Assembly: GCF_018812025.1 (NCBI RefSeq) | Contig: NC_063051.1 | Span: forward strand, 4,961,896-5,025,895 | Reading direction: 5' to 3' | DNA: 64,000 nucleotides | From: Megalobrama amblycephala | Taxonomy: Eukaryota; Chordata; Actinopteri; Cypriniformes; Xenocyprididae | Shown: positions 19,501 to 50,149 of the stretch, one piece after another | Layout of the letters: each line of letters begins with the position of its first letter | How positions within the stretch are numbered: the stretch's first letter is position 1 | Translations under genes and position numbers: made by a program | The notes under the pieces: generated by a model | What the model was told of the DNA's origin: nothing | Seen by the model: the letters and a program-made list of their open reading frames with translations, nothing else | The model's database searches: none

Positions 19501-20084
19501 ATTTTAGTTCAGTTCTGAATGGTTCACAACCCTGTTCCTTGAGTGAATCCCAACCATGCTAACCGCAGTCCAGAGTCATTTATTTCAACCACAAGGGGGC
19601 AGTATAAGAACACCTAATCTGCTTATAAAGGCAGTTTCTTCAGATTTATCTGCTTGTTCCCTGGGAGGGCAATCAGCAGGTTGTCAAATAAGAATCATGC
19701 ATCACTCATCAGGGAGCGCCCTCTCTGTCCTTTCCTTCTGCTAGCAGTTCTGTTCCAGCCTATATCCAGAAGATGATGCTTTGTGCTCAAACACTTTCAT
19801 CTCTTTATTCATCTCTTTATATCAGATTATTACTAATAATTGATTGGTGTATTGTAAGTACAAGTACAAAGTTTGGTCTGATTAAAGTCAGTTTATGTTC
19901 TTAAAGGAATAGTTCACCCAAAAACAAAGAATTTCATAAAGGTTCTTTGTATTAATATGAACAATTCATTGGTGTATGTAATTCCAAAGTAATTTGTGAA
20001 GTAATATTTCCTCAAAATGCAATTTTGCTCCGCCTCTGAAACAACTCATTAAGATATCTTATTTTTAAACACCTCCTCTCCAAA
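16561..20084. other. Long noncoding stretch
   Basis: About 3.5 kb without a gene. It contains an (ACAAA)n tract at 18803-18832 and, at about 19903-19925, the terminus AAAGGAATAGTTCACCCAAAA of a foldback MITE whose partner end is missing. The stretch at 17690-17900 is G+C-richer and non-repetitive, but neither strand gives an exon I can defend. Confidence 0.5.
18803..18832. repeat. (ACAAA)n simple repeat
   Basis: Six consecutive AAAAC/ACAAA pentamers. Confidence 0.93.
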
Positions 20085-20474
20085 TGTAACCCCTTGCACC
20101 GCTCTGAGCGGGATTCAAACCTGTGTTTCCGGCATGGGATATGGACATTCTAACAATGGCGCTAAAGACTGCAGTGCTCTAGTGCACCTCTTGAGGTCAG
20201 AGGAGTGAGGTTTACTCGCACAGCGATTACTAGCTGGCCTCCATTACACACCCCAAAACCTCATTCCCATCCGGGTCATGGCACCAATGTAACGCCTCCA
20301 CTTTTACTTACACCGCTCCGAGCGGGATTCAAACCGCCGTCTCCAGCATGGGAGGCAGACACACTAACAAGGATGCTAAAGACTGCAGCCTCTAGTGTCA
20401 GTCACCAGTGTGCCTCTTGAGGCCAGGGGAGTGAGGTTTACTCACACAGCTCTTACTAGCTGGCCTCCGTTACA

Positions 20475-20512
20475 CCCCCAAAACCTCACTCCCATCCGGG
20501 TCACGGCACCAA
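20475..20512 (-). other. Representative spacer: tRNA-His primer-binding site plus polypurine tract
   Basis: Read on the minus strand, the 38 bp start one base after the LTR end with TGGTGCCGTGACCCGGAT. Its complement, ATCCGGGTCACGGCACCA, agrees with the 3' end of vertebrate tRNA-His (…ATCCGAGTCACGGCA plus CCA) at 17 of 18 positions, as I recall that tRNA. The other half, GGGAGTGAGGTTTTGGGGG, is purine-rich and touches the next LTR. The same arrangement recurs in all twelve spacers with few changes. Confidence 0.75.
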
Positions 20513-20699
20513 TGTAATGCCTCCAGGTTTACTTGCACCACTCCAAGCGGGATTCGAACCGCCGTCTCCAGCATGGGAGACGGACAAGCTAACAAGGACG
20601 CTAAATACTGCAGCCTCTAGCATCAGTCACTAGTGTGGCTCTTGAGGCCAGGGGAGTGAGGTTTACTCACACAGCTCTTACTAGCTGGCCTCCATTACA
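20513..20699 (-). repeat. Representative LTR unit (unit 3) with tRNA-like segment
   Basis: A 187-bp LTR-like unit. Near its end on the minus strand it carries a tRNA-like stretch: a D-arm-like TTAGC...TTGTTAG, then an anticodon-arm-like hairpin (GTCTCC...GGAGAC), then GGTTCGAATCC at 20550-20560, an exact pol III B box. The acceptor arms do not pair and the T stem has mismatches, so it is not a functional tRNA gene. A hairpin GAGGCCAG/CTGGCCTC (20644-20651 with about 20683-20690) lies at the other end. The exact B box is kept in nine of the thirteen units. Confidence 0.72.
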
Positions 20700-22904
20700 C
20701 CCCCCAAAACCTCATTCCCATCCGGGTCACGGCACCAATGTAACAGTTTTACTTACACCGCTCCGAGTGGGATTCGAACCGCCGACTCCAGCATGGGAGG
20801 CAGACACACTAACAAGGATGCTAAAGACAGCAGCCTCTAGTGTCAGTCACCAGTGTGCCTCTTGAGGTCAGGGGTGTGAGGTTCACTCACACAGCTCTTA
20901 CAAGCTGGCCTCCGTTACACCCCCAAAACCTCACTCCCATCCGGGTCACGGCACTAATGTAACGCCTCCAGGTTTACTTACACCACTCTGAGTGGGATTC
21001 GAACCGCCGTCTCCAGCATAGGAGGCAGACACACTAACAAGGATGCTAAAGACTGCAGCCTCTAGCATCAGTCACTAGTGTGGCTCTTGAGGCCAGGGGA
21101 ATGAGGTTTACTCACACAGCTCTTACTAGCTGGCCTCCGTTACACCCCCCAAAACCTCATTCCCATCCGGGTCACGGCACCAATGTAACAGTTTTACTTA
21201 CACCGCTCCGAGCGGGATTCGAACCGCCGACTCCAGCATAGGAGGAAGACACACTAAAAAGGATGCTAAAGACTGCAGCCTCTAGCATCAGTCACTAATG
21301 TGGCTCTTGAGGCCAGGGGAGTGAGGTTTACTCACACAGCTCTTACTAGCTGGCCTCCGTTACACCCCCAAAACCTCACTCCCATCCGGGTCACGGCACT
21401 AATGTAACGCCTCCAGGTTTACTTACACCACTCCGAGTGGGATTCGAACCGCCGTCTCCAGCATGGGAGGTGGACACGCTAACAAGGACGCTAAATACTG
21501 CAGAATCTAGCGTCAGTCACTAGTGTGGCTCTTGAGGCCAGGGGAGTGAGGTTTACTCACACAGCTCTTACTAGCTGGCCTCCATTACACCCCCAAAACC
21601 TCACTCCTATCCGGGTCACGGCACCAATGTAACGCCTCCAGGTTTACTTGCACCACTCTTAGCGGGATTCGAACCGCCGACTCCAGCATAGGAGGCAGAC
21701 ACACTAACAAGGATGCTAAAGACTGCAGCCTCTAGCATCAGTCACTAGTGTGGCTCTTGAGGCCAGGGGAATGAGGTTTACTCACACAGCTCTTACTAGC
21801 TGGCCTCCGTTACACCCCCCAAAACCTCATTCCCATCCGGGTCACGGCACCAATGTAACAGTTTTACTTACACCGCTCCGAGCGGGATTCGAACCGCCGA
21901 CTCCAGCATAGGAGGAAGACACACTAAAAAGGATGCTAAAGACTGCAGCCTCTAGCGTCAGTCACCAGTGTGCCTCTTGAGGTCAGGGGAGTGAGGTTTA
22001 CTCACACAGCTCTTACTAGCTGGCCTCCGTTCCACCCCCAAAACCTCACTCCCATCTGGGTCACGGCACCAATGTAACGCCTCCAGGTTTACTTACACCA
22101 CTCCGAGCGGGATTCGAACTGCCATCTCCAGCATGGGAGGCAGACACGCTAACAAGGACGCTAAATACTGCAGCCTCTAGCATCAGTCACTAGTGTGGCT
22201 CTTGAGGCCAGGGGAGTGAGGTTTACTCACACAGCTCTTACTAGCTGGCCTCCGTTACACCCCCAAAACCTCACTCCCATCCGGGTCACGGCACTAATGT
22301 AACGCCTCCAGGTTTACTTACACCACTCCGAGTGGGATTCGAACCGCCGTCTCCAGCATGGGAGGCGGACACGCTAACAAGGACGCTAAATACTGCAGCC
22401 TCTAGCGTCAGTCACTAGTGTGGCTCTTGAGGCCAGGGGAGTGAGGTTTACTCACACAGCTCTTACTAGCTGGCCTCCGTTACACCCCCCAAAACCTCAT
22501 TCCCATCCGGGTCACGGCACCAATGTAACAGTTTTACTTACACCGCTCCGAGTGGGATTCGAACCGCCGACTCCAGCATAGGAGGCAGACACACTAACAA
22601 GGATGCTAAAGACTGCAGCCTCTAGCGTCAGTCACCAGTGTGCCTCTTGAGGTCAGGGGAGTGAGGTTTACTCACACAGCTCTTACTAGCTGGCCTCCGT
22701 TACACCCCCAAAACCTCACTCCCATCTGGGTCACGGCACCAATGTAACGCCTCCAGGTTTACTTACACCACTCCGAGCGGGATTCGAACTGCCGTCTCCA
22801 GCATGGGAGGCGGACACGCTAACAAGGACGCTAAATACTGCAGCCTCTAGCGTCAGTCACTAGTGTGGCTCTTGAGGCCAGAGGAGTGAGGTTTACTCGC
22901 ACAA

Positions 22905-24529
22905 GCATAATATTTCACAATCCAATCAAGTCCCACCCTACTTTTTTCTGTTGAATATTCTGCCTCAATTTGAAGCACATTATGAAAGTAAATGGGTTGG
23001 GAAAGCCATTTATTGTGTACTTTAAGGTTGTCCTTTTAGCATTAAAAGCAAAAAAACCTGAATTGAATAAAAAAGGCTCTTTTTTAATTATAACCTTCAG
23101 CATACTTGGCACTAGCGCACTGAAAAGACACCAGCAAATAAATATTTCTCCTTTACTTGAGCCATTGTGTAATATTGATCAAAAACACTTTTCATGAGGG
23201 TGCAGATGTAGTTGGAATATAGGGTAACCTTTAGTCTCAAGGCCTAATGATTGTTCAAATGTCCTTTTCTCACAGAGCAAAAAGAATCATGAATGTTAAA
23301 AGAGTGCATATAGTGAAGTTCATGTTGGTAAGAATTTCTCAATTTAAAGAAGAAGAGGAAGATATATTTTTTTAAAATAAGTAGGGGGTTGGGAGCCAGT
23401 CAGGCTGTTCAGTCTAAAGTGCCGTCCTTCTAAAATGGGGCTGAAAAGAGGTTTTTAGTTAGTGCCAGATTGCATTCCACACAGTTCATTACCCAGCACT
23501 TACAGAGAGGACAAAGGTATCCCTTTGTATTATATATTCAAGGCTGACGAGAAGAAATTCCATTTCAAGTCAGAGAGTCAGGTGCAGAAAGGGAAAGACC
23601 GATTGAGGGGTAAAAAAAAAAAAAAAAAAAAAAGAATGAATTGGGTGCGGGGATTAAACCGTCAGGTGAGTTGTGTGAGGGACTAGGCTAACCTTTTACT
23701 TTTTATCAAATAGAAACCACACATTTTTAGTGTAAAAGCACAGGCATAGCATGGCTGAACATATGCAAGGGCAAATGTGTGAAAACTCAGGAATGTTAGA
23801 CTTTCATTCAAATGCAGAGTACAACTTTTTTTGCCAAAGGTTGGGGTGATGTACAACTGAATGGTTACATTAAAATATTCAACTTGTAAACTATTTAGCA
23901 CTTTACAGGCATCCAGCATGATATTATAGTAAGTCAAATATGTTCTATATGAAGACACAGGGCCTTATAGGGCCTTATGTGTCTGCCATGCATACAATCA
24001 TGAATATTCATTCATTACCACATTATCATAAAGCTAACAGATACAACAAGGATATTAATAACTGACTAAATTCAGCCACCGGTGCAGGTGTCACACTTTA
24101 CTTCAGTGAATATTTCTCACAGTAAATTTAATCCAGCCAACATTTCATGGTAGGGTCGATGTAGGCAAGATATGGGCTAGAGATATGGGCCCTAAACGGG
24201 TTTGTTCATGGGTTCCATGTTGGCCCTATCTGATTTAGCCCTTACTGTGACATTCAGCGGTCAGATATTTCCTAATTTTCACTTCATCCATGGCAACGAT
24301 GTATATCAATCTGCTCATCCAGATAACCTGTGCTACTTTCAGGTCTCCTGTATCACACCGTTGATGTGCTCTCTCTTTTCATATGAACACAAATAGCGGC
24401 TTCTTCCATTGCAGTTATTGACTGTAGTGGAAATGACCACAGAGAACTGCAGGACTGTTATTATTGTTGCAGTGTTTGTCTTGTTGCTAAGATGAATGCT
24501 TTGTACAGTACATTACTGAACAGTACAGA
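22905..24529. other. Noncoding stretch with a poly(A) run
   Basis: A run of about 22 A at 23612-23633 precedes GAATGAATTGGG. Near 24130-24240 GGGC/CCCTA-type words recur (minisatellite-like). No gene was recognised. Confidence 0.5.
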
Positions 24530-49908: not shown

Positions 49909-50040
49909 AAAGCCGTGGATTCATTATGTCGGACTCACCGCAGGTGACTCATAATCTACAGTTGTTACTCCTGTCTCCTGACAAAAACATTGCATGCAGC
50001 GCCTGTGGAGTGTGGAAAGTTACTGGAGCAGGCAGCCGCG

Positions 50041-50149
50041 CGTCTCTCACATGGATCGTCATGTCAGTGATTGACACGCCAGAGGGCCAATCCGCGCACG
50101 TCTCTCACAGGAACGTCATGGCAGTGATTGACAAGCCAGAGGGCCAATC
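50041..50149. repeat. Tandem duplication of a 51-52-bp unit
   Basis: CGTCTCTCAC...GTCATG...CAGTGATTGACA-GCCAGAGGGCCAATC occurs at 50041-50092 and again at 50099-50149 with a few changes. Confidence 0.85.

Follow-up and report, generated by a model that had tools for sequence, protein, structure and literature searches.

Introduction

Helenus elements, defined by Kojima (2024) as TRIMs whose LTR carries a tRNA-like sequence, are known from cypriniform hosts that include Danio, Cyprinus, Carassius, Culter, Onychostoma, Phoxinus, Squalius and Triplophysa (PMC10886601). Vertebrate Helenus elements use tRNA-His, -Leu or -Lys as primers, animal families are flanked by 4-bp target duplications, and the zebrafish family LTR-11_DR, with 5575 LTRs and 2618 interiors, has been observed in tandem arrays (PMC10886601). 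In the literature searched, LTR-11_DR appeared in Kojima 2024 alone, and no further Helenus papers from 2024 on were found. Tandem TRIMs and LTR elements have also been described in plants (PMC7215508, PMC4528315 and PMC11899658, in the parts of these reports that are available). Clusters of the plant TRIM Cassandra with 13 LTRs and 12 interiors were recovered by inverse PCR, according to the available part of PMC7215508; multi-LTR copies of the 532-bp maize TRIM Wukong, some with three, four, six or seven LTRs, are ascribed to unequal crossing-over in the available part of PMC4528315.

Here we describe a tandem array within a 64,000-nucleotide stretch of the Megalobrama amblycephala genome (the window). 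By description, its family resembles the Helenus and LTR-11_DR relatives of Cypriniformes (PMC10886601) in TRIM size, 4-bp duplications and tandem arrays, and Helenus in particular in its tRNA-His primer site and in a putative tRNA-like sequence with a B box in its LTR. The family is likely a TRIM of the Helenus kind, and the window element, compared by description, is probably related to LTR-11_DR of zebrafish. With Cassandra, as the available part of PMC7215508 presents it, the element shares a small-RNA-gene promoter in the LTR (predicted here) and tandem arrays with shared LTRs; Cassandra, however, is a plant element that carries 5S rRNA in its LTR, whereas the LTR here has a putative tRNA-like part and no 5S match. 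Multi-LTR copies link it to Wukong, a plant TRIM for which the available part of PMC4528315 mentions no RNA-gene-derived part. The original prediction held that a tandem TRIM in a fish would be unusual, a claim overtaken by the published zebrafish LTR-11_DR arrays and other cypriniform members (PMC10886601). The kind is thus already in print, and what is new is the locus in this host genome; we add footprint evidence, with 6 of 17 called arrays lying within one 4-bp duplication, and the mosaic structure of inner LTRs. Together, these data offer a sequence-level view, in a fish genome, of how a minimal retrotransposon can turn into a satellite, in which single insertions, arrays in one integration footprint, differing outer LTRs and mosaic-looking inner LTRs are all visible. 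Recognition of such arrays also keeps them from being taken for plain satellites or tRNA pseudogenes.

Layout of the array

The minus strand from 22919 to 20085 splits into 13 LTRs that share 12 interiors, as originally proposed. The array opens with the outer 5' LTR (LTR 1, 22743..22919), whose 5' edge is degraded, the first ~26 alignment columns being degraded or replaced. It is followed on the same strand by interior 1 with its tRNA-His primer site (22705..22742), LTR 2 (22524..22704, 181 bp), interior 2 (22485..22523), LTR 3 (22298..22484, 187 bp), interior 3 (22260..22297), LTR 4 (22073..22259), interior 4 (22035..22072), LTR 5 (21854..22034), interior 5 (21815..21853), LTR 6 (21628..21814) and interior 6 (21590..21627). 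The second half continues with LTR 7 (21403..21589), interior 7 (21365..21402), LTR 8 (21184..21364), interior 8 (21145..21183), LTR 9 (20958..21144), interior 9 (20920..20957), LTR 10 (20739..20919), interior 10 (20700..20738), LTR 11 (20513..20699), interior 11 (20475..20512), LTR 12 (20288..20474) and interior 12 (20249..20287), and closes with the outer 3' LTR (LTR 13, 20085..20248), which differs from the other LTRs by 18–23%.

The 11 inner LTRs (LTRs 2–12) are 187 bp long in seven cases and 181 bp in four, and differ pairwise by 2–13%. They begin with TGTAAC or TGTAAT (TGGAAC once) and end with GTTACA (ATTACA once). Tandem Repeats Finder reports a period of 225 over 20188–22903 (12.2 copies, 90% matches) and also one of 445 (6.1 copies). 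The expected unit of ~225 bp holds as a period, though not as a uniform length: units measure 220, 225 and once 226 bp, in irregular sequence. A higher-order structure suggested by the 445-bp period was considered and rejected, as units at no lag resembled one another significantly more than shuffled orders would give (best lag 3, fraction 0.10). No target duplication is visible at the array itself, its flank reading ...TTGGAT before TGTGAAATA, and TTTGGAGA following the final GTTACA. Two queries against the rest of the window found no copies of the array (best match E 0.099).

Primer site and G-tract

Each of the 12 interiors in the window consists of T, the 18-nt primer site and GGGARTGAGGTTTTGGGGG(G), with single-base variants, and is 38 or 39 bp long. 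The predicted match to tRNA-His one base after the LTR is borne out in every interior: the primer site TGGTGCCGTGACCCGGAT is present as an exact 18-mer in six and with one mismatch in the other six. Ten places in the genome match a pattern built on the T arm and acceptor stem of tRNA-His, and the six that were fetched are all tRNA-His(GTG) genes. With CCA added, their 3' end is exactly complementary to the primer site, and the proposed comparison with host tRNA-His genes came out in its favour. Human tRNA-His, in the available part of its published record, differs by one base over the 18-nt site. The 18-base primer site itself had no match in the literature searched; its first 12 bases occur in five papers, among them the one with human tRNA-His.

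LTR edges, primer-binding site and G-tract stand in the order originally described. The claim of a purine-rich tract abutting the next TG survives in part: a few G do adjoin TG, but the tract is interrupted by TTTT, reading GAGG-TTTT-GGGGG(G), once with GGGGTG. In many of the copies read elsewhere in the genome a GGGGGGTGAG-like tract, by its sequence a putative polypurine tract, precedes TGTAAC, and that of the window array appears to be shortened to GGGGG(G) after TTTT. The 38-bp interior, too, is confirmed for the window (38–39 bp with a T4 run) but not as the usual form, since 168 of 206 measured interiors, the 12 of the window counted in, are 42–43 bp long, the interior length of most of the copies measured elsewhere in the host genome. 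The TTTT run occurs in 12/12 window interiors versus 10/194 interiors elsewhere (5/51 loci). As a possible RNA polymerase III (Pol III) terminator, it may leave the units of the window array without full-length Pol III transcripts.

A 13-bp inverted repeat joins interior 3 and LTR 4 (22297–22073), and among the 11-base windows compared across 44 loci, the one in its LTR arm is conserved best. A hairpin between interior GAGTGAGGTTTA and LTR TAAACCTCACTC was examined and rejected. The arms are conserved as sequence, but they pair no better than shuffled partners and show no covariation; the observed pairing was reached by 688 of 2000 shuffles (198 pairs, 50 loci), and by 1711 of 2000 when each locus contributed a single pair. 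We therefore claim no hairpin structure.

Promoter-like motifs in the LTR

The original prediction had missed a putative tRNA-like segment in the LTRs, in which motifs resembling A and B boxes are present. In LTR 3, as an example, the A-box-like motif TTTAGCGTCCTTGTTAG lies at 22374..22390 and the B-box motif GGTTCGAATCC at 22335..22345, both on the minus strand. The former occurs in the form TTTAGC....GTTAG in 11 of 13 LTRs; the latter is exact in nine and has one mismatch in four. Among the 13 window LTRs searched with the Rfam tRNA model at E 10, LTR 6 alone was matched (21657..21722, minus strand), at 21.2 bits and thus under the gathering score of 29, and the model matched none of six other loci at E 1. 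ARAGORN found no tRNA at default settings; with lowered thresholds it called tRNAs of changing isotype in some LTRs, to which we give no weight. Matches to other Rfam families, microRNAs and snoRNAs among them, fell under the gathering scores and were likewise set aside. At gathering scores Rfam matched nothing in the window, 5S included, and 5S is absent from the 11 matches in 20000–23000 at E 10. Overall, the tRNA-likeness of the LTR is weak.

Conservation was ranked over 44 loci with one LTR each, the window array counting as one locus. The best-conserved 11-base windows are TAAACCTCACT, the 3' end of the LTR and AGGCCAGCTAG near the 5' end, followed by the B box, level with TAAGAGCTGTG; the B box takes rank 22 of 177 overlapping windows. 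Such conservation fits Kojima's account of Helenus, in which GGTTC is retained in box B of the LTRs (PMC10886601), but is no proof of transcription.

Copies and target duplications across the host genome

The array is a stretch of a genuine LTR retrotransposon of TRIM size that is present genome-wide, both singly and in arrays. This reading follows from its junctions, single copies, solo LTRs, arrays, 4-bp duplications and match to host tRNA-His. In the host genome (1,109,882,926 bases; 1.11 Gb), the unit query has at least 212 matches. Among the matches listed, no other locus exceeds 88% identity to the unit over the aligned part, which sets the window array apart as a homogenised group of its own. 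The junction of LTR end and primer site, with at most one mismatch, occurs 892 times, versus 0 for the reversed control, and is therefore not due to chance. The genome holds 226 pairs of exact primer sites spaced one unit apart, against 0 in the control. Exact matches outside the host were found neither in viral contigs and prokaryote genomes nor in phages and plasmids.

Two samples of loci were inspected. The first, 37 loci around the best unit matches and hence biased to arrays, had at least two recognizable interiors at 31 loci, one at three and none at three. For the second, 19 loci were taken along contig C1 in the order in which they occur; each has an exact junction and was read over ~620–850 bp. 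At least two interiors were present in five and one in 14, some of these 14 being truncated copies. Clear single LTR-interior-LTR copies on C1 include L078, L080 and L082. In the copies compared, LTRs that kept both edges span 173–193 bp, and a short non-coding interior lies between the TG...CA LTRs, the whole measuring less than about 1 kb.

The original prediction had called for single copies flanked by 4–6-bp duplications, and had linked the failure of the retrotransposon reading to a unit that lacks duplications and occurs only as a satellite. Both single copies and duplications are present. With edges called automatically, 36 elements could be scored; 27 clusters, which include the window array, lacked usable edges. 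Exact 4-bp duplications flank 10 of the 36, against 0.70 on average and 6 at most in 5000 shuffles, three of the 10 (L035, L037 and L042) resting on edges that mismatch TG...CA or GTTACA; duplications of 3, 5 or 6 bp at called elements number 0. A first, cruder edge rule had given 9/30 (shuffle mean 0.77, maximum 4 in 2000). By class, 4-bp duplications are found at 4 of 15 single copies, at 6 of 17 arrays, where one duplication surrounds the whole array, and at 0 of 4 solo rows. The automatic edges are wrong at some loci: L032, L041, L043 and the solo LTR L046 show exact duplications with edges set by eye, and these four, scored as misses, stand outside the count of 10/36.

LTR pairs were compared at six C1 loci, with differences at 0/193 positions in L082, 1/179 in L078, 5/193 in L070 (its first and second LTR), 8/191 in L080, 15/173 in L077 and 23/192 in L075. 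The low values indicate that some insertions are recent.

Two other explanations for the repeat were weighed against these data. An ordinary satellite that merely resembles a retrotransposon could account for head-to-tail units with a period of 225 and a higher-order period of 445, but is already refuted by the single LTR-interior-LTR copies; the genome also has solo LTRs and 4-bp duplications, and one interior stands alone in 14 of the 19 C1 loci (~620–850 bp read), so we give this explanation a negligible probability. The tRNA-like segment with its B box would suit a tandem array of tRNA-derived SINEs or tRNA pseudogenes, which we regard as very improbable given that the repeats have TG...CA boundaries with 4-bp duplications, that a primer site and G-tract lie between them, that a SINE tail is absent by eye in the 19 C1 loci and that tRNA scores fall under threshold.

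Probable growth of the array

We consider it likely that this tandem TRIM string, with its 13 LTRs and 12 interiors, grew in place from one insertion by repeated unequal LTR–LTR crossing-over. At the start, one LTR-interior-LTR element would have inserted. Its transcription would begin at the tRNA-like A and B boxes in the LTR, a predicted RNA polymerase III promoter, and reverse transcriptase and integrase would be supplied by an autonomous element, predicted to be Gypsy after Kojima 2024 (PMC10886601). After insertion, the LTRs would misalign, and a crossover would take place between the 3' LTR on one chromatid and the 5' LTR on its partner. Every crossover would add one unit, with a new LTR composed of the 5' part of the 3' LTR and the 3' part of the 5' LTR.

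The inner LTRs can be compared with this order. In the window, the majority of LTRs 2–12 is LTR 13-like at the 5' end and then LTR 1-like at 33 of 35 informative sites, the LTR 13-like leading sites all lying in columns 1–26, the part of LTR 1 that is degraded or replaced; truncation of LTR 1 and divergence of LTR 13 could mimic this polarity. The reverse order fits 26 of 35 sites, none of 10000 order shuffles equals the fit of 33/35, and each of the 11 inner LTRs taken singly fits better to the order of 3' LTR then 5' LTR. Two of the seven two-interior loci, L066 and L070, were given the same mosaic test. The three-LTR array L066 has 27 of 34 sites in crossover order versus 17 reversed (p 0.002); L070, whose two interiors are identical, has 7/8 versus 6/8 reversed (p 0.14), which is not significant alone. 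Three states are common to LTR 1 and LTR 13 and occur in 0 of the 11 inner LTRs, and private states number eight in LTR 1, 18 in LTR 13 and 0–4 in each inner LTR. Two sites at which LTR 1 and LTR 13 agree had at first been used to argue for an ancestral state; since other loci commonly carry both states, the argument was abandoned.

Arrays within a single duplication fit one integration followed by growth, and likewise the insertion of a ready-made array. In the latter case, one step would have inserted either a read-through RNA of several units or else a concatemer or one-LTR circle from reverse transcription; the 6 of 17 called arrays within a single 4-bp duplication are also predicted by such a step, and multi-unit Cassandra transcripts are reported in the available part of PMC7215508. 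LTRs that arrive together should, however, be equal at birth and without polarity, whereas the window array and L066 show the crossover order and the odd LTRs are the outer ones. One-step insertion thus seems unlikely to us. A further reading, in which arrays are themselves the mobile unit, with Pol III starting in any LTR and reading through mostly T4-free units, reverse transcription of the multi-unit RNAs, their integration as complete arrays within one 4-bp duplication and subsequent homogenization by crossing-over, strikes us as distinctly doubtful; if true, a Pol III-driven retrotransposon would seed satellites across a vertebrate genome. Unequal crossing-over after a single insertion is favoured instead, insofar as the inner LTRs of the window array and L066 appear mosaic in the order that it predicts. 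The original proposal that LTR–LTR recombination gave rise to the array is likewise favoured by the mosaic order (33/35; 27/34 in L066) and the odd outer LTRs.

Further observations

The single copy L082 (C1:52090145-52090762), with its identical LTRs (0/193), lies inside an AT repeat and differs from the first LTR of L070 by a single change; judged from these sequences, it appears to represent a recently active subfamily. The automatic scoring called no 4-bp duplication for it. At 20 places in the genome, the 18-nt tRNA-His primer site is followed by three other bases. These are candidates for the autonomous partner, and some may be mutated TRIM copies. Arrays of shortened units occur at L037 (144 bp alternating with 230 bp), L048 (~168 bp) and L064, as if satellite units newly arise by deletion within a TRIM array. 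Elsewhere in the window, at 50037–50149, Tandem Repeats Finder reports a 57-bp unit present twice, with 91% matches.
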